From positions 1 to 24,075 of the IMG/VR virus record IMGVR_UViG_3300007542_000179: a DNA stretch of 24,075 nt. One strand, 5' to 3'. Shown one piece after another: positions 3,339 to 24,075 of the stretch. Positions within the stretch are counted from its first letter, which is position 1, and each line of letters opens with the position of its first letter. The notes below the pieces were generated by a model. The model had not been told where the DNA came from. It did no database searches and was given only the letters and a program-made list of their open reading frames with translations. A program made the translations under genes and the position numbers. Source of the DNA: a virus.

Positions 3339-3779
3339 CTACCTCTTAAATGGGATTACGCGGATCTTATCCACGCCGTAGTTGCTGATTGGATCGCCTA
3401 GGTCGAAGCCCATGAATTTGATCAGGCGGATGTGTAGCTTGTTGCGTGCGTCTACGACGTTCTCAAGTCGCCCATGCTTCATGGTCATGGCCGTGATCCA
3501 TGCACGTCCGGTCGTCGCCAGCTCACGTGCATTGGTCTTTATGTCAGGGGCAGACAGCATCCACACAGCTCCGTAGGAACCTGTAGACACGACCCCTGCG
3601 ACGAGGCTAACTGTCCCCTGTTTGCCTACCCCGGTGATGCAGTCCGTAGATTGCATGTAACCGAGGGAGAGGGCTTCCAGTGGCGAGAGGCCAGCCATAG
3701 ACTGGACCTCCCGTTGATCTTCCACCCGCATCGTGTTTGCGAGTTCTAGGATGTCGTTTGGTTCTGTTTTGCGGATCAT
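3339..3779 (-). CDS. 13: Internal virion protein A, T7 gp13-like
   Basis: This 146-residue protein (T7 gp13 has 138) starts at the ATG at 3779, which overlaps the gp12 stop. It has a GNAT-like layout: MIRKTEPNDILELANTMRVE, then ALSLGYMQSTDCITGVGKQG, AVWMLSAPDIKTNARELATT, and RNKLHIRLIKFMGFDLGDPI near the end, the last resembling an acetyltransferase core helix. In T7, gp13 is needed for correct assembly of the internal core. Members of this family are not known to be active acetyltransferases. Assignment is by order and overall pattern. Confidence 0.85.
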   Translation of the reverse strand: MIRKTEPNDILELANTMRVEDQREVQSMAGLSPLEALSLGYMQSTDCITGVGKQGTVSLVAGVVSTGSYGAVWMLSAPDIKTNARELATTGRAWITAMTMKHGRLENVVDARNKLHIRLIKFMGFDLGDPISNYGVDKIRVIPFKR

Positions 3780-6199
3780 CTGAACCCCGAGGTGTGACGA
3801 CTGTACCGTCCCTCCCACTCGGCAGCGGTGAAGCCACTCGGCAGGAACGTGTCGTTGATTAAGGTTACGCTGAACTCCCCTGCCTTAGCTTGGACAGGCA
3901 CACGCAGCACGCCTTGGACCGTGTTGATCTGGCCTAGGATTGTGCTCTCGTTGCCTAAGGTCACGCCAGTCAGCCCGTAGTTCAGCGGGTCTGATGCGTA
4001 CTCTTCCCCTAAGCGCCCGGTGGCTTTCACCTCGACGCGGAAGTATCCTGTCTTTGCGTAGGCCACGAGCCAGCGGCTGATCTGTAGACGGCCAGCGATG
4101 ACTGAGGCTACACCACCAGAGCTAGACTGGGCTTTGATAACAGGCTGCGAGAAGGTGTACTTGTGTGCGTATTTCACACCAGCGAAGAACTTCATGTTGG
4201 CAGCTAGGCCCGACACCGTAACCAGTGTTCCACCTCCAACTGGGTCCACAATTTGGGACACCACCGTGAGGTTCTTCCCCGGCCCGGTAGAAGACGTACC
4301 GTCCCCAACGCGGGTGGCTACAGCTAAAGGTGCAGTGGTTTCATACGAGAGGCGGAACGTCGTCCTGCGTGCCCCCGTGTCTTCAACCAGATCGGTAACA
4401 CTGGTCTCATCAACTCGGCGGTCAAGGTGGTACACAATCGTCTCACCTTCCTCTTCTCGGCCCTTCCCAAGGTCCATGACTTCGAGGTACACCCCGTCAG
4501 CGTATTCCGTGAGCAGGATGAGTTCGTCGCTGATGAAGTCCACGCTCCGCACCACACCGTCTTCTGGCATTGTCCATCGGGACCAGCTTGACTGCAGCTT
4601 CTGTTGTCCATTCCAGTGGTACTTGTAAACGAAGATCGAACGTGGATCACCAGAAGATAGAACCACAGCCATACCAGCACTCTCAGAAGCTGACACTTTT
4701 GTAATAGGCGCAGGGATATATGTGGGGACGTGTTCAGTGATCTCTGCTGCATCAGTCTCAGCGCTATCCTGCATGACGTAGTATTCATAGACAGCTCCAA
4801 ATGTGCCTTTGTTGACTGGGAAGAACAGCGTCCGTCCAGCCCCAACAGGCGCAGTGTCCCCTCGGCTCTCATAGTCCGACAGGGTCTTGATTGTTGGCGG
4901 CTTTCCAGCTGCGAGGTATTCGTCTTCGATAACGAACTGTCGTTGATCAGAGAACAGAAGAACCTTCTTGTTGAACAGCACTGCGTAGTTGAGGCTGGTT
5001 ACAGAGGTTCCCGGTGACGACACGTCGATAGGACCGTCGTCTAGGACTGTGATCACTGTGGCTGCGAAGAAGTTGAAGAAGTCGTTTGATGCTGACATAC
5101 TCACGGTGTCAGCGCCTAAGAAGCACAGGCGGCGTCGGTCGAAGTAAACGTCTCGGATGGTTCCGCCAACGAAGGACGGCCAAGGAGACGTATCCACGTC
5201 ACCAACCACGCGCCGCCCCCAGTTGATCTGTCGCAGCTCGAAAGACCCATCGACCATCCGTACCAGTGAGTGTGGCATTGTGGCTGGGTTGAGTGCCGTA
5301 AGTGTCCCCGGTGCTGTGGTCTCTTCCCACACCCCACTGTCGTAAGTGAGGGATGCGTTGTTGGGGATGAACTTAAGGTAATAGTCGTCTGTCTCGGACC
5401 CTTCGTCCCCGGTGACCTTAACCAGAAAGTTCCGCTTGCCTACAACAGGGAGATCGGTGAACCGCTGGATACTGTCTGTAATTGCCTGCGTCTTGGTGTT
5501 GCCATCATCGTCCGTAAACTCCAGCTCGAATGCAGAGTTGTCGGACTTCGTGATGTGCAGGATTGGCGAGTAAGAATTAAACAACCACCCAGTCGGGAGA
5601 CTGCCCAGAAGTTGAGCCTTAAGGGCCTCTATAACTTCATCAACAGACACTGAAGCATCAGCATCTGCAGAAGCATCGGTAGTGTAGCTGGCAACCTCAG
5701 TCCCATTGATACGGACTTTGTAGGTTACGTCATAGTTCACTGCCTTTACAAACAACATAGCCTCTTCAATGGGAGCTGGAGCTGTCACGGTGAAGGTCTC
5801 AACAATGCGCTTGCGGTTCACGATGAACGTGTAGTCAGCGACAGTGATTGCCCGTAGGTCAAGAGCGGCATTCGTCGAGCTGATGTAGTTGGTTCCTGCC
5901 GGATACGTGACAGACCGCTCTTGACCTGTGGTCACGTCGTAGACAGCGATCCCTGTCCCATCAGCAATCACACTGTACCGTTCAGCGCTATCTCGGTTGA
6001 TGGTGTGGAAGTACGCGCCCTGTGCTGTAGCAACTGTCAGCTTTGCCCTGAACTTCGTCGGAGGGCGTTTGATGTTGCCCTCAACAACGGACGAAACAGC
6101 GTTCTCCTGTAGCTCTGCCTGTGAGGCCATACGCATGGTAACAGCCTGCTGGCTCACGCCGTTCATCAGGTTTGGGAGTTGTTCAGAAACAAGCGTCAT
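3776..6199 (-). CDS. 12: Tail tubular protein B (nozzle), T7 gp12-like
   Basis: This 807-residue protein (T7 gp12 has 794) builds the tail nozzle. It opens with the typical VSEQLPNLMNGVSQQAVTMR and NIKRPPTKFRAKL, and has an internal FVGGTIRDVYFDRRRLCFLG segment that is conserved in the family, followed by SDQRQFVIEDEYLAAGKPPT. The C-terminal part is rich in beta segments. It overlaps the gp13-like gene by 4 nt (ATGA). Confidence 0.96.
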   Translation of the reverse strand: MTLVSEQLPNLMNGVSQQAVTMRMASQAELQENAVSSVVEGNIKRPPTKFRAKLTVATAQGAYFHTINRDSAERYSVIADGTGIAVYDVTTGQERSVTYPAGTNYISSTNAALDLRAITVADYTFIVNRKRIVETFTVTAPAPIEEAMLFVKAVNYDVTYKVRINGTEVASYTTDASADADASVSVDEVIEALKAQLLGSLPTGWLFNSYSPILHITKSDNSAFELEFTDDDGNTKTQAITDSIQRFTDLPVVGKRNFLVKVTGDEGSETDDYYLKFIPNNASLTYDSGVWEETTAPGTLTALNPATMPHSLVRMVDGSFELRQINWGRRVVGDVDTSPWPSFVGGTIRDVYFDRRRLCFLGADTVSMSASNDFFNFFAATVITVLDDGPIDVSSPGTSVTSLNYAVLFNKKVLLFSDQRQFVIEDEYLAAGKPPTIKTLSDYESRGDTAPVGAGRTLFFPVNKGTFGAVYEYYVMQDSAETDAAEITEHVPTYIPAPITKVSASESAGMAVVLSSGDPRSIFVYKYHWNGQQKLQSSWSRWTMPEDGVVRSVDFISDELILLTEYADGVYLEVMDLGKGREEEGETIVYHLDRRVDETSVTDLVEDTGARRTTFRLSYETTAPLAVATRVGDGTSSTGPGKNLTVVSQIVDPVGGGTLVTVSGLAANMKFFAGVKYAHKYTFSQPVIKAQSSSGGVASVIAGRLQISRWLVAYAKTGYFRVEVKATGRLGEEYASDPLNYGLTGVTLGNESTILGQINTVQGVLRVPVQAKAGEFSVTLINDTFLPSGFTAAEWEGRYSRHTSGFR

Positions 6200-8133: not shown

Positions 8134-8151
8134 CTATGGTGGTGGGTAATT
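8134..8151 (-). promoter_or_regulatory. Candidate phage RNA polymerase promoter for the major capsid gene
   Basis: The minus-strand sequence is AATTACCCACCACCATAG, one base from the consensus, with the presumed +1 G at 8134. It is positioned as the T7 phi10 promoter is, directly in front of the capsid unit. The transcript start can pair with bases 25-30 nt downstream to form a 5' hairpin. Confidence 0.85.
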
Positions 8152-9665: not shown

Positions 9666-9785
9666 TCAGAAGTCCTCACGTGTGGTTCCGCCAGTCAGTT
9701 TGATGGCTTTGGCTTTCGATGTCTTGACGGCCTTCGCTGGCTTAGGCGGCGACTGCGGGGCCTTGGGGGCTTGGGGGTTGTCCAT
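9666..9785 (-). CDS. Small Pro/Lys-rich hypothetical protein, 39 aa
   Basis: The ORF starts at the ATG at 9785, inside the end of the portal gene in another frame, with AAGGA 10 nt upstream. It ends with TGA at 9666-9668, two nucleotides before the scaffold start. The product begins MDNPQAPKAPQSPPKPAKAV and ends IKLTGGTTREDF. It has seven Lys and one Arg, no hydrophobic segment, and a conserved-looking C-terminus. It fills the gap of about 80 nt between portal and scaffold and carries the scaffold Shine-Dalgarno (GAGGAC) in its last codons, so coupled translation is likely. Lys/Pro-rich peptides of this kind could bind DNA or a virion protein; nothing more can be said. Confidence 0.6.
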   Translation of the reverse strand: MDNPQAPKAPQSPPKPAKAVKTSKAKAIKLTGGTTREDF

Positions 9786-11400
9786 CTGGTGCTTGTCCTT
9801 GCTGTAGTTGTTGGGCGATCATTGGCCCGACTTGCTTCATCATCTCAGGTGCGAGGTTCTGCATTGAAGCAGCCTGTTGATCCTGCTCTTGCTTGGCTGC
9901 ACGATCTGCAGACGAGATCAGGAGGCCTTTGGTTTCTATGCCGTCAGACACGGCGAGGCGGGATGCGAGTTCATCCAAGTTTATGTAGCTTTCGAGCTTT
10001 TCCTTACCCACGAGCTGGGCAATGGTCTCGGCGTAGCGCATCAGCTTGTCGCGGTCGTGCCCGCGTCCAAGAGCAGCGAAGCCTGTCACGATGACTGGCT
10101 CAACACCCTCGGGAAGCTGTGGCATTTTCCCACCCTTACGGAGCAGGAATAGACGACGACGCACGAATGGCAGCTGGAAGTCTTGGGACAGGACCGAGTA
10201 GATCCCGCCTAGGCTGTCATCAAGTTCTTGTGCAATGAACCTGACCTCTTCTGCAGTCACACGCTCGGCGTTACGCATGACCTCGGCGTTGATCATGAAG
10301 GCGTGGGCCAGCTGGCTTCGTAGGCCGTCAACCACAGCCTTTGCGATCTGCATGTCAGCTGCTTTATCCAACCGAAGGGCCGTCACGTCAGCTGCGTTGC
10401 CAGCCTTAACGTCTCCGTTGTTGGCAGTGGCAATCGTTTTTGGGTTGGTGGTGCCGTTAGCGTTAACCAGCCAGACAACCTTCGCAGCGTTTAGGGCTGC
10501 ATCCCTGATCGCCTTGGACAGAACCTCAAGACTTTCGAGGTCGCCTAGGTACATCTCGACGTAGCCTCGTCCATAGTTCTCACCGTCCACACGCATGAAG
10601 CGTAGGAACAGCCAAGGGTTGCCATCCTCTGGGACATTTCCCTCGGACCCGGCTACCTTCTTGCCCATGATCTCCTGATACCACTTCACCCGGTCACCCT
10701 CGTAGGTGATGTGGGTGTAGACTTGGACGTGGCGGTCAGGTGACGCACCAGCAGCGATAGGGGCTGCATCGACGATAGACTTTGCTGCACCTGTAAGAGA
10801 CGATGGGGCTGTGTCTTCGCACAGGATGCCCTCAAGCATGTTCCCCTCAGGGTCACGCGAGACGACATACTTGTTCAGGTTGTAGAGCTTGCTGCTCTTC
10901 TCACCGATATGGAGCAACACGTTCCCTGTGATCGACAGGTGCTTGAGCGCTTCAAAGACAACGGTGACATCTCCAGCGTTCTCTACTGCACGTATGGCAG
11001 CGCGTTCAATTACACCGAGGCCTTTCTCGACCTCAGTCTTTAGAAGCGCTGTTTCCTCTGGATCAGCGTTGGGGTCTTGTTCACCCTGCGCTTCGATCAG
11101 GTCAATGTTGAGCTTGAAGAACGGTGTGTTCGTCGGCAACAGGGACAAGACCATCTTGGCCGCGAGAGTGTTGACCCCTCTGGCCCCCATAGACTGCACA
11201 GGATCCACGATCTTCTGGCTTGATGTGTGCTGTTGGTCCTTCATGAAGATCGTCGGGATCGTCAGCTTTGCACACTTGTCACCACGGTCTACGAAGTGGG
11301 TACGGTCTGGCGTAAGCTGGTTGTATCGGGCTTGAGCTGTGCCAGTAACCGCGAGTGTACGGTCGTCTGAACTCGCTGTTGCGCGGTTATCTTCTGGCAT
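9742..11400 (-). CDS. 8: Portal (head-tail connector) protein, T7 gp8-like
   Basis: This 552-residue protein (T7 gp8 has 536) forms the dodecameric portal through which DNA is packaged and ejected. Family-like segments include ARYNQLTPDRTHFVDRGDKC near the start, MGARGVNTLAAKMVLSLLPT, ALKHLSITGNVLLHI, GRGYVEMYLGDLESLEVLSK, and AEVMRNAERVTAEEVRFIAQ near the middle to end. The tail is Gln/Pro-rich (QLQQGQAPDGQPPSPQGP). Its start follows AAGGTGAT. Its last 44 nt overlap the start of the 39-aa ORF in another frame. Confidence 0.97.
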   Translation of the reverse strand: MPEDNRATASSDDRTLAVTGTAQARYNQLTPDRTHFVDRGDKCAKLTIPTIFMKDQQHTSSQKIVDPVQSMGARGVNTLAAKMVLSLLPTNTPFFKLNIDLIEAQGEQDPNADPEETALLKTEVEKGLGVIERAAIRAVENAGDVTVVFEALKHLSITGNVLLHIGEKSSKLYNLNKYVVSRDPEGNMLEGILCEDTAPSSLTGAAKSIVDAAPIAAGASPDRHVQVYTHITYEGDRVKWYQEIMGKKVAGSEGNVPEDGNPWLFLRFMRVDGENYGRGYVEMYLGDLESLEVLSKAIRDAALNAAKVVWLVNANGTTNPKTIATANNGDVKAGNAADVTALRLDKAADMQIAKAVVDGLRSQLAHAFMINAEVMRNAERVTAEEVRFIAQELDDSLGGIYSVLSQDFQLPFVRRRLFLLRKGGKMPQLPEGVEPVIVTGFAALGRGHDRDKLMRYAETIAQLVGKEKLESYINLDELASRLAVSDGIETKGLLISSADRAAKQEQDQQAASMQNLAPEMMKQVGPMIAQQLQQGQAPDGQPPSPQGPAVAA

Positions 11401-11825: not shown

Positions 11826-11843
11826 CTATGGTGGTGGGCAATG
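11826..11843 (-). promoter_or_regulatory. Candidate phage RNA polymerase promoter for the portal/scaffold unit
   Basis: The minus-strand sequence is CATTGCCCACCACCATAG, with the presumed +1 G at 11826. It differs from the consensus at -17, -13 and -8. It lies between the DUF3310-like gene and the first virion-gene unit. The bases downstream (CACAGGAACACC) already include the Shine-Dalgarno of the next gene, so the leader is only about 17 nt. Confidence 0.75.
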
Positions 11844-18548: not shown

Positions 18549-18566
18549 CTATGGTGGCGGGTAATT
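18549..18566 (-). promoter_or_regulatory. Candidate phage RNA polymerase promoter upstream of the HTH-protein gene
   Basis: The minus-strand sequence is AATTACCCGCCACCATAG, identical to the copy at 21710-21727, with the presumed +1 G at 18549. The TAA stop of the amidase gene overlaps its upstream end. It should drive the HTH protein, the 47-aa protein, primase-helicase and the replication genes beyond. Confidence 0.85.
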
Positions 18567-20943: not shown

Positions 20944-20961
20944 CAATGGTGGCGGGTAATT
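20944..20961 (-). promoter_or_regulatory. Candidate phage RNA polymerase promoter upstream of the 86-aa gene
   Basis: The minus-strand sequence is AATTACCCGCCACCATTG, with one difference at -1 from the consensus. The presumed +1 G is at 20944. Downstream, TTTACCAAAAAC is nearly the same as in the copies at 21710 and 18549. It lies in the 70-nt gap between the antirepressor-like gene and the 86-aa gene. Confidence 0.8.
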
Positions 20962-20969
20962 GCCCCTGC

Positions 20970-21671
20970 TCAGTGCAGAGCGCGTGGTGTCAGTATCCCA
21001 GTTGAGCGTGCTGCTGCGTCGAGGCAGGCACGTGGGTAGACGTTGACTGCGCTGTCGATCACCTCACCGCTGCTGAGAGTTACCTTGCGACTGGACTTCG
21101 TGATCTCCTGCCCGCTCTCTGCCGCTGCCTTCTTAGCATGGTAGGACAGGCGTCCCTTCTCAGACTGTGAGAGGTAGACGTGGTTCAAAGAGACGTACTC
21201 AGCCATCGTAACGACAGACAGCTCGTGCTTGAGGCCTGCGTTCTCCGCAGCTAGGCGGGCGACCTTGGCTGTCAGCACCTCATGGGCACGTAGGATCAGT
21301 TCGTCTTCGGACATCTCGCCCGTGGTCACCTTCTCTTCACCCATCACATAGCCACCGTCTTTGCGGATGGCCGGAAGGACGACGTTGGTGACCCAGTCTT
21401 GGAATGCGCGGGCTGCTGGTTTGTCGGAGCGCATGATCAGTTTGCAGAGACCACCCACGCTTAGGAATTTGGGGGCACGGCCAGCCACTCCGGGTAGGCG
21501 GTGAGTGCAAACATAGGACCGATCTATGTTTGGTAGGGCCGTCGTTAGGTTTGTGATCGACAGCGCATTGCACACGTCGCGGGCCATGAACCAAGGCGAA
21601 CCCTTGATGTCGATCACGCGGATGCTGGCGGTGTTGAAGTTGAATGTGTTCACTGTGTTATCGTTTGCCAT
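20970..21671 (-). CDS. Bro-N domain antirepressor-like protein
   Basis: This is a 233-residue protein. Residues 10 to about 110 look like a Bro-N domain: a short beta segment (IRVIDIKGSPWFMARDVC) followed by NALSITNLTTAL, FLSVGGLCKLIMRSDKP and FQDWVTNVVLPAIRKDGGYV, the usual order in phage antirepressors. Residues 125-165 look like a coiled helix. The C-terminal part (about 165-233), with GRLSYHAKKAAAESG and VNVYPRACLDAAA, resembles the C-terminal DNA-binding half of KilAC/antirepressor proteins. A Shine-Dalgarno AAAGGA lies 10 nt before the ATG. A phage promoter candidate stands directly upstream, so it is probably an early or middle gene. Antirepressors normally inactivate prophage repressors; the target in a T7-like phage is unknown. 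The domain call is made by eye. Confidence 0.8.
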   Translation of the reverse strand: MANDNTVNTFNFNTASIRVIDIKGSPWFMARDVCNALSITNLTTALPNIDRSYVCTHRLPGVAGRAPKFLSVGGLCKLIMRSDKPAARAFQDWVTNVVLPAIRKDGGYVMGEEKVTTGEMSEDELILRAHEVLTAKVARLAAENAGLKHELSVVTMAEYVSLNHVYLSQSEKGRLSYHAKKAAAESGQEITKSSRKVTLSSGEVIDSAVNVYPRACLDAAARSTGILTPRALH

Positions 21672-21709: not shown

Positions 21710-21727
21710 CTATGGTGGCGGGTAATT
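21710..21727 (-). promoter_or_regulatory. Candidate phage RNA polymerase promoter upstream of the antirepressor-like gene
   Basis: The minus-strand sequence is AATTACCCGCCACCATAG, with the presumed +1 G at 21710. It occupies the gap between the end of the RNA polymerase gene and the next start codon. Including downstream bases, 34 nt (21695-21728) are identical to the copy at 18534-18567. The end of the 18-mer (CCATAG) resembles the initiation end of the T7 promoter (CACTATAGGG). Confidence 0.85.
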
Positions 21728-21750: not shown

Positions 21751-24075
21751 CTAGGCAAAGAAAAAGTCACTGTGCCTGACCGCAGATACGTCGAGGGTTC
21801 CTTTGGCTGGTACAGGGAGGATCTTGGCCTGCTGTTCAGGGGCTACCTGACGCAGGAACTGCTGACGCAGGTCTTCGAGCACGTCAGTCTCATGGTACAG
21901 GCCGACGAATGCCTCGCGCAGGCACGCCGAGAGTAGGGCTGTGTTGGCCGCGTGGGTGCCGAAGCTGTCGTGGATCATAGCGAAGGCGCTGATGCCGTTG
22001 GTGACAGCGAGATCTGTTGACAGCACAAGGTGGGTCGCGTCGAGGGAGTGGACGACATTGGGGCTGATAGCGTTGGCCATCCGGCGCTTGTCGATGGTGT
22101 CGATCTCATCTTGCAGGGACAGACGTATGGTGGCGTCCCCGATCTTGGTCTCCACCCGGCGCAGCTTGTAGTTCTGGTAACGCTGCATGACAGGGAAGCC
22201 TGACGGTGTGATCCAGTAGACGGGCAGCTCTTCCTTTGCCACAACCGATGCACACTTCTGGAGCCAGCCCATCGCGTCACGTGCGGCAACCACGACTTCA
22301 CTTATGCTGTCCCAGATCATCTTCGACATGAACTGAGTTGCCTTGAAGGTTTCCTTCTCCCCGAATGGATTGGTGTAGCCTTCTGCGATGCGTCCCTTAA
22401 GCCACTGTTCAGTGTACGACCGACAGGAAAAGAGTGTAGACCCATAGGGAAGTGTCATCACCTGTCTCTTGGTGGTGCTGCGATTTGGCTCAAGCGAAAG
22501 CCAGCCTTTTGCCATAGCTATAGCTCCCTCTATAGTTATAGCTATAGCTTCTTCCCCTTCCTCTTCTTCTCCTGATGGGGGAGTATCTATGGGAGTAGCT
22601 ATAGCTATGGTGGCGGGTAACTGATTGATCACGCCGTTCAGCTTGGCGATCACCTGATCACACACCGTCTGGTAGATGTCTGCAGGTGTGTCTTGAGGGA
22701 TCAGGTTCACAGCCTTACCGCCCATAGGATCCCTCAGCATGGCACTAAAGTGCTGGATGCCAGAGCAGCTGCCATCTAGGGCAACAGGCAGGTGAGAGAC
22801 GAAGCCATAGCCCTGTGTGTGGAAGTCTGCCCACTCGAAGCAGAACGCGAGGAACTGCCACGGGCTTTTCGCCTGCATCCACGCGATGTTGCTTAGTGGG
22901 TCGAGCGCTGTCTCAATGATCAGGTCTGTGTGTTCTTCGACCCAGCCGATGCGATCCTCCAGTGACGCCTTGTCGTAGCCATAGACGTTGGCCCCTTGGA
23001 TAGCGAGCCAGCCAGCCGCCACGCCGTCTTCGATAGCCATGCCATCAGCGAACTCGATCAGGCCCTTGGTGATGTCCTGTCCCTGCGGATGGAACGACCC
23101 CACCGCATAGACCCGGCCCCGGAAGTCAAAGTTATGGGGGAAGTGGATCGCGTCGAAGCCCACGAAAGCCTCAGCTACCTTGAGGGTCTTCGCTGTCGCC
23201 ATCCGCTTGGAACGCATGGACACGTTGGCCTCGTGCTGACGGAATGCTGCCCGCTTCCACGCCTTGAGGACATCCTCGTCTTCGAAGCACGTGTGCTCAG
23301 ACCGCTTGCGGGTGTTCATGGACGGCATCGGGATCTGTTCCTTACAGGCTGGACACTGCACCATCTCCCAGTCCTCACGTGAGGGCAGAGGGGTGGCCTC
23401 AGGGGCGATGTCCCAGAACTCTTGGGCAGTGGCGTTGACGCGGGCGTTCACCCTCCACCGGGTGTCCTGCAGCGCGTTGATGGTGCTATATACGGCGGGC
23501 ATGGTGTCGGCGTTGTCGGCCAGCTCGGACAGGTAGGCTTGGTTGCGGGTCTTGACCATCGTCATTGGCCCTTGCGCCAGCGCAGTGAGGTAGCCCCCAT
23601 CGAAGGGCGTTGTCCACGGTAGAGGGCGTACGACCATAGGCTGTTGGGTCGGGAACAGAAGCTCGCTCTTGTTGTTGTCCGCTTCGATCCACTTGAGCAG
23701 CTTAGGTGTCGGCTCCAGCACCTTGACGGTGTTCTTCTTGCCCTTCACCTCGGTGCCAACCGAGACCAGCCCAGTGTCCAGCAGCATGTCGATCAGCGCG
23801 GCACCCAGCTGGAGCCTGTCGATCTCGGGCCAGCCCACCCACTCTTCGCCGCGCTGGTGCTTTTCGTACCCGGACATGGTGGCCTTGCGGCGGTGATAGG
23901 CACCCCCCTTGGCACGCTCCTGCGCCCGCTTGAATACAGCTGGCGTGTCCTTGGCGAACTCTGTGAACCGGACCTCGTCTTCCATGCGACTGCCGATGGT
24001 GACGGCCACCCGCTGCAGCATCCTGCGCTTGCCTGTGAGGGCGTCAACCACCACGCGGATAGCGATGAACGCAGC
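21751..24075 (-). CDS. 1: T7-like single-subunit DNA-directed RNA polymerase, N-terminus cut by window edge
   Basis: This enzyme transcribes the phage middle and late genes from phage-specific promoters. The frame is open to the window edge and shows 774 codons; T7 RNA polymerase has 883 residues, so about 110 N-terminal residues are missing. Catalytic motifs are intact: LDGSCSGIQHFSA holds the first metal-binding Asp, RSTTKRQVMTLPYGS holds the active-site Lys and Tyr, and IHDSFGT holds the second Asp. The C-terminus ends in DFFFA, close to the DFAFA end of T7. The specificity-loop region after WITPSGFPV is divergent and appears shorter than in T7, which fits a promoter different from that of T7. 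Two odd regions stand out: a C-x2-C...H-x-C cluster at 23287-23355, and a Glu/Ala/Ile-rich loop at about 22505-22625 that contains a promoter-like element. Identity is certain; the true start lies outside the window. Confidence 0.98.
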   Translation of the reverse strand, partial: AAFIAIRVVVDALTGKRRMLQRVAVTIGSRMEDEVRFTEFAKDTPAVFKRAQERAKGGAYHRRKATMSGYEKHQRGEEWVGWPEIDRLQLGAALIDMLLDTGLVSVGTEVKGKKNTVKVLEPTPKLLKWIEADNNKSELLFPTQQPMVVRPLPWTTPFDGGYLTALAQGPMTMVKTRNQAYLSELADNADTMPAVYSTINALQDTRWRVNARVNATAQEFWDIAPEATPLPSREDWEMVQCPACKEQIPMPSMNTRKRSEHTCFEDEDVLKAWKRAAFRQHEANVSMRSKRMATAKTLKVAEAFVGFDAIHFPHNFDFRGRVYAVGSFHPQGQDITKGLIEFADGMAIEDGVAAGWLAIQGANVYGYDKASLEDRIGWVEEHTDLIIETALDPLSNIAWMQAKSPWQFLAFCFEWADFHTQGYGFVSHLPVALDGSCSGIQHFSAMLRDPMGGKAVNLIPQDTPADIYQTVCDQVIAKLNGVINQLPATIAIATPIDTPPSGEEEEGEEAIAITIEGAIAMAKGWLSLEPNRSTTKRQVMTLPYGSTLFSCRSYTEQWLKGRIAEGYTNPFGEKETFKATQFMSKMIWDSISEVVVAARDAMGWLQKCASVVAKEELPVYWITPSGFPVMQRYQNYKLRRVETKIGDATIRLSLQDEIDTIDKRRMANAISPNVVHSLDATHLVLSTDLAVTNGISAFAMIHDSFGTHAANTALLSACLREAFVGLYHETDVLEDLRQQFLRQVAPEQQAKILPVPAKGTLDVSAVRHSDFFFA
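22516..22606. repeat. Three copies of the 10-bp palindrome AGCTATAGCT in the RNA polymerase gene
   Basis: Exact copies are at 22516-22525, 22540-22549 and 22597-22606; the last one overlaps the +1 end of the promoter-like element. The intervening DNA also contains CTATAG and a purine-rich run on the minus strand. The stretch encodes an Ala/Ile/Thr/Glu-rich loop in which seven Ile codons are ATA, a codon otherwise scarce around it. It could be a simple-sequence expansion or a protein-binding site. Confidence 0.85.
22605..22622 (-). promoter_or_regulatory. Candidate phage RNA polymerase promoter inside the RNA polymerase gene
   Basis: On the minus strand the sequence is AGTTACCCGCCACCATAG, one mismatch from the consensus of the intergenic copies (AATTACCCGCCACCATAG). 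The presumed +1 G is at 22605. It lies within the coding sequence, in a loop that is poorly conserved relative to T7. If active, it would start a transcript covering the 3' part of the polymerase gene and the antirepressor-like gene. That it is a promoter is inferred from similarity to the other copies. Confidence 0.7.

Follow-up and report, generated by a model that had tools for sequence, protein, structure and literature searches.

Promoters in and around phage RNA polymerase genes

Promoters inside phage RNA polymerase (RNAP) genes are already known from Syn5 and KP34, at positions other than the one described here. In Syn5 an internal promoter was shown experimentally (PMC6834552, PMC3950665); it is located at 4929, in codon 270 of 779, and a second copy lies directly after the terminase gene. 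As in the phage studied here, a promoter of the single-subunit phage RNAP sits within the RNAP reading frame, but the Syn5 site falls in the first half of the enzyme and not in the Flap loop, so the two positions do not correspond. The Syn5 genome also has only two promoters, and their sequence is different. In the Klebsiella phage KP34, 5'-RACE mapped a start of the phage RNAP inside the RNAP gene itself (PMC6834552). Unlike the site reported here, the KP34 start is weak, lies near the 3' end of the gene and bears no sequence relation to that phage's strong promoters.

T7 itself has extra phage promoters near the 3' end of its RNAP gene (phi1.1A and phi1.1B), but these stand outside the coding sequence, while T7 phi4c lies inside a coding gene, that of the primase/helicase and not that of the polymerase. 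LUZ100, a T7-like phage with an integrase, has the phage promoter phi1 upstream of its RNAP gene (PMC10134795). A promoter upstream of RNAP is also seen in the present clade (position 4446 of contig L112, see below), but LUZ100 has a short loop and no internal loop promoter. Our literature search, which was light on subscription journals, returned only Syn5 and KP34 as cases of a promoter inside an RNAP gene, and no report of a promoter in this particular loop or of its co-variation across relatives. The two precedents suggest that promoters arise repeatedly in RNAP genes, so that their purpose becomes a testable question.

The locus and the polymerase loop

The window analysed here, a 24,075-base IMG/VR virus record, covers part of a T7-like phage genome whose main genes lie on the minus strand. 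These encode RNAP, an anti-repressor-like protein, a T7-type single-stranded DNA binding protein, an amidase, primase/helicase, DNA polymerase, exonuclease, portal, scaffold, capsid and nozzle. Megablast of the window against phage records gave no match. The MAG contig JAFMBH010000215.1 (L112) is identical to the window across a 2,364-base overlap and extends it 5.1 kb upstream, where a MarR-like regulator, a tyrosine integrase, a tRNA-Leu, the start of the RNAP gene and, upstream of RNAP, the promoter-like site TTACCCGCCACCATAA at 4446 are found. L112 (1-5147) was binned in a 'Bacteroidetes' MAG and represents the window phage or one identical over the overlap; because it may come from the same water sample as the window, it was left out of the count of independent phages. 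The features that concern the polymerase are as follows.

21751..24075, minus strand: gene for a T7-type single-subunit RNA polymerase (PF00940, E 2e-108; PF14700)
22513..22635, minus strand: expanded loop, approximately residues 481-521, corresponding to T7 residues 587-614 (Flap, split site 601)
20970..21671, minus strand: first gene downstream of RNAP, BRO-N / anti-repressor-like protein

The RNAP in the window comprises 774 amino acids, its 5' end lying beyond the window and present in L112, and the best structural matches of its model are T7 RNAP structures. In an alignment of about 100 RNAPs, the segment bounded by one helix that ends at residue 484 and another that begins at 515 is longer in the window than in most phages. 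Residues 486-510 have AlphaFold2 pLDDT values below 50 between two confident helices and are predicted to be disordered. ATA accounts for 7 of the 8 Ile codons in this stretch, compared with 2/34 elsewhere in the RNAP gene, and the run EEEEGEE lies in the same stretch. An earlier sequence-only reading had pointed to these seven ATA codons and the Glu run, to an unrelated T7 sequence at this place and to a possible insert; the ATA codons, the Glu run and the unrelated T7 sequence are confirmed, and a clade-specific expansion with predicted disorder is supported. T7 RNAP tolerates both splitting at 601 and added domains in this region, and the surface loop at its largest split seam was named 'Flap' by the authors (PMC4299498); that the 601 seam is the Flap loop is our own reading. 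Since the T7 enzyme can even be split at this point, an expanded loop should be tolerated here.

The promoter set of the window

Six matches to one promoter sequence were observed in the window against 0.09 expected, and every copy is oriented with the main genes.

22605..22620, minus strand: phage promoter within the RNAP coding sequence, TTACCCGCCACCATAG, exact (16/16), proposed +1 at 22605
21710..21725, minus strand: phage promoter directly past the RNAP stop codon (about 25 bases after it), exact
20944..20959, minus strand: phage promoter, 1 mismatch
18549..18564, minus strand: phage promoter, exact
11826..11841, minus strand: phage promoter, 2 mismatches
8134..8149, minus strand: phage promoter, 1 mismatch

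As expected for a T7-type RNAP promoter, for which elements of 16-18 bases are usual, the sequence is repeated upstream of phage genes on one strand; a putative T7-like layout from -17 to +1, with specificity bases at about -12 to -8, fits the T7 consensus when aligned by eye. The loop copy is read in frame as TTA CCC GCC ACC ATA G.., giving LPATIA. Its TTA is the sole TTA codon of the RNAP gene in the window and likewise in the relatives L025, L122 and L126. Synonymous resampling regenerated the loop match in none of the trials for the window or L026 and in a fraction of 0.00025 for L025. Exact scans of IMG/VR found TTACCCGCCACCATAG in only 3 contigs and TTAGGTTCCACCATAG in only 9, with one copy each, and the clade set used below leaves these contigs out.

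Conservation of the site and change of its bases among relatives

Seven relatives cover the loop (L025, L026, L122, L123, L124, L126 and L194), and L125 covers only the part after it. L025 and L026 share 64% and 62% RNAP identity with the window, respectively; the other five, which were found through C-terminal searches, share 57-60% overall. The expanded loop is common to all seven, and a promoter-type 16-mer stands at the same codons in 8/8 phages, the window included. Mean nucleotide identity is 0.79 on the 16-mer, against 0.43 just upstream and 0.27-0.36 downstream; the loop outside the 16-mer shows 27-45% nucleotide identity. In phages further removed, the loop is shorter and lacks the promoter. 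L213 (59% identity over the C-terminal part) also has a short loop, with the promoter absent there, and outside the clade no full mid-gene promoter match was found among 172 loci or among 58 more. The matches near the start of the RNAP gene in these two scans reflect promoters upstream of RNAP.

Variation between genomes falls mainly at -12 to -9 and at the last two bases of the 16-mer: CCCG and a final AG in the window, GGTT and TG in L025, GGGA and AG in L122, and AGTT and CC in L194. The loop copy usually follows the promoters of its own genome, at the cost of altered amino acids (LPATIA, LGTTIA, LSSTIP). L122 carries TTAGGGACCACCATAG in the loop and TTAGGGACCACCATTG or the same site ending in AG elsewhere. 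In L194 the loop copy is TTAAGTTCCACCATCC; all five sites of this phage end in ATCC, and the loop Ala has become Pro. One exception is L124, where only one other promoter is known and differs from the loop copy at five positions. Loop copies fitted the promoters of their own genome better than swapped ones (permutation P 0.0024); shared ancestry is uncontrolled in this comparison, and the loops of L123 and L124 hardly differ from each other. The own-genome set of L026 consists of two external sites, and for the loop copies of L123 and L126 the fit to certain other genomes is about as good as the own-genome fit.

A promoter that keeps its place while both letters and amino acids change suggests that a DNA signal, and not the protein, is retained there. 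The sequence-only reading had proposed that the variable loop captured a cis-element, and had named conserved amino acids with lost promoter bases as the pattern that would speak against it. The relatives give the opposite pattern, with bases kept and amino acids changed, and the element appears to evolve as a promoter across them.

The residue of the enzyme that would read these bases is encoded in the same gene.

22150..22152, minus strand: codon of Glu642, the equivalent of T7 RNAP Asn748 in the promoter specificity loop

In T7, Asn748 contacts bases -10 and -11 (PMC5937735). Its equivalent is Glu in the window and Lys in 8/8 relatives compared, and the promoter bases are CC at -11/-10 in the window, with G at -11 in the other phages. 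The Glu/Lys difference would fit a change of specificity carried through the whole promoter set, loop copy included, and we infer that Glu642 may have caused the promoter switch.

Palindromes, CTATAG and the inverted repeat

The promoter copy lies beside three exact 10-bp palindromes in the coding frame, just as the sequence-only reading had reported. The window has exactly three copies of the palindrome AGCTATAGCT (22516-22525, 22540-22549 and 22597-22606), with 0 expected in shuffles, and the copy at 22597-22606 shares with the promoter its final two bases.

22599..22604, unstranded: CTATAG element 1, core of palindrome 22597-22606
22542..22547, unstranded: CTATAG element 2, core of palindrome 22540-22549
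22530..22535, unstranded: CTATAG element 3, 12 bp from elements 2 and 4 (CTATAG-N6-CTATAG-N6-CTATAG)
22518..22523, unstranded: CTATAG element 4, core of palindrome 22516-22525
22591..22610, minus strand: inverted repeat, left arm, CCATAGCTATAGCTACTCCC, beginning within the promoter
22512..22528, minus strand: inverted repeat, right arm, GGGAGCTATAGCTATGG

CTATAG is the most over-represented hexamer of seven clade loops: these hold 14 copies, while 111 kb of the same contigs hold 4, and the loop total was reached in 0/3000 dinucleotide-preserving shuffles of the loops. All CTATAG of the contig fall within the loop in L025, L026 and L194, and these three phages share with the window CTATAG-N6-CTATAG pairs spaced 12 bp apart; no CTATAG is found in L126. 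As the flanks vary among phages, the 10-bp palindromes are largely peculiar to the window phage. Judged by sequence, they are elaborations of a second, putative shared DNA signal, CTATAG. An origin of the palindromes as slippage products, which had also been considered, does not simply hold, because the CTATAG core recurs in the relatives' loops with different flanks. A conserved RNA hairpin was sought and rejected, the loops folding only mildly better than shuffles (z -1.9, -1.8, -1.2, -3.0 and -2.7).

In a set of 23 T7-like loci, the 500 bases at and beyond the terminase stop show an 18-fold enrichment of CTATAG. In T7 itself the hexamer belongs to the promoter sequence, which contributes to the enrichment there; in L059, L122 and L123 it stands behind a promoter. 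In L049, whose RNAP is about 40% identical, five CTATAG were also noted right where the RNAP gene begins (9725-9830) and five more directly behind the terminase gene (3516-3600), with no promoter recognised at either place.

Proposed role of the internal promoter

The loop site is probably (about 0.8) a genuine promoter for the phage's own RNAP, kept by selection at the DNA level in a disordered loop. The polymerase would start RNA at 22605 on the minus strand, and this RNA would cover the last third of the RNAP gene and run on into the operon behind it. It would add to the transcripts from the promoter past the RNAP stop and from the upstream promoter on L112. The simplest view of its purpose is an extra start for RNA over the end of the RNAP gene and the following operon. 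The full promoter about 25 bases past the RNAP stop makes it less obvious what a second, internal one would add.

Read in this way, the locus would be a clear example from nature of a protein-coding loop that preserves a cis-regulatory signal, with a recognition domain and one of its targets sharing one gene and changing together. The clade also offers divergent promoter/RNAP pairs for specificity studies (Glu with CC; Lys with GGT, GGG or AGT), and some 'hypervariable loops' of phage enzymes should perhaps be read as DNA.

Alternative readings of the loop

The most interesting alternative for the purpose of the loop is a transcription-primed replication origin, a possible but rather improbable role that it would play besides being a promoter. 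The promoter RNA would open the AT-rich CTATAG stretch and prime DNA synthesis. The primary origin of T7 lies at phi1.1A/phi1.1B behind gene 1. The loop after the promoter ranks in the top 0.01-1.5% of AT-rich 60-base windows per contig in the clade (0.7% in the window); measured in the same way, the T7 origin region stands at 0.09%. CTATAG is enriched in the loops and also after the terminase gene, where it follows a promoter in L059, L122 and L123. However, the AT content is 53-67%, well under the 78% of the T7 stretch, and L126 has no CTATAG at all. T7 carries CCTAAAG clusters at its ends; the CTATAG of the clade differs in sequence and has one cluster in the RNAP loop. A more specific and still less likely version is that promoter and CTATAG array form one reusable module, placed at the genome end and within the polymerase's own disordered loop, which would act in the loop as a transcription-primed origin and have to co-evolve with the specificity loop about 470 bases further in the gene.

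It is unlikely that the palindromes are operators through which a MarR-like or anti-repressor-like product regulates the internal promoter. The CTATAG-N6-CTATAG spacing in four phages and the MarR-like gene and integrase upstream in L112 would suit such a regulator, and MarR sites near the RNAP promoter have been proposed for relatives (PMC10134795). Yet CTATAG is absent upstream of RNAP in L112 and L194, and the same hexamer clusters at genome ends, where it has no obvious role in lysogeny.

Somewhat less likely again is that the internal promoter yields mRNA for a C-terminal polymerase fragment, comparable with the engineered 601-883 'sigma fragment' of T7 RNAP. T7 RNAP split at 601 functions in trans (PMC4299498), and in the window GGGAG precedes by 8 bases an in-frame ATG (AMAKGWL) where the conserved core resumes. 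This ribosome site falls in a predicted stem, however, and L026, L123 and L126 have no comparable conserved start; a conserved internal translation start for such a fragment was not found across the clade.

It is very improbable that polymerase function preserves the motif L-x-x-T-I-A and that its likeness to a promoter is accidental. T-I is kept in 8/8 phages and T-I-A in seven, but the x residues (PA, GS, GT, SS) and the last A, which is P in L194, vary with the promoter bases of each genome, the Leu is encoded by a rare codon, TTA or TTG, in every case, and the predicted disordered loop is absent or unrelated in more distant relatives.

Further observations among the loci

Own-type promoter matches were seen within the exonuclease gene at L122:19832, in a GIG motif, and at L126:10426; their positions differ between the two phages and they were rejected as a shared site. 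The 'promoter' annotated within the RNAP gene of UNO-SLW was likewise set aside, being a predicted host-type site and not a phage promoter. In L110 (10001-12937) and L111 (34-2364) the RNAP gene is interrupted after the motif CKRPVV and so divided into two open frames, possibly through an insertion, and in L007 (2437-4613) the RNAP match lies in two frames that part near query residue 175. The short RNAP loop (at about codon 564) of the Roseobacter-type phages L035, L036 and L242 holds TCTAACCCGAAACGA, which also occurs directly before the promoter past their RNAP stop, a different DNA repeat in the same loop.
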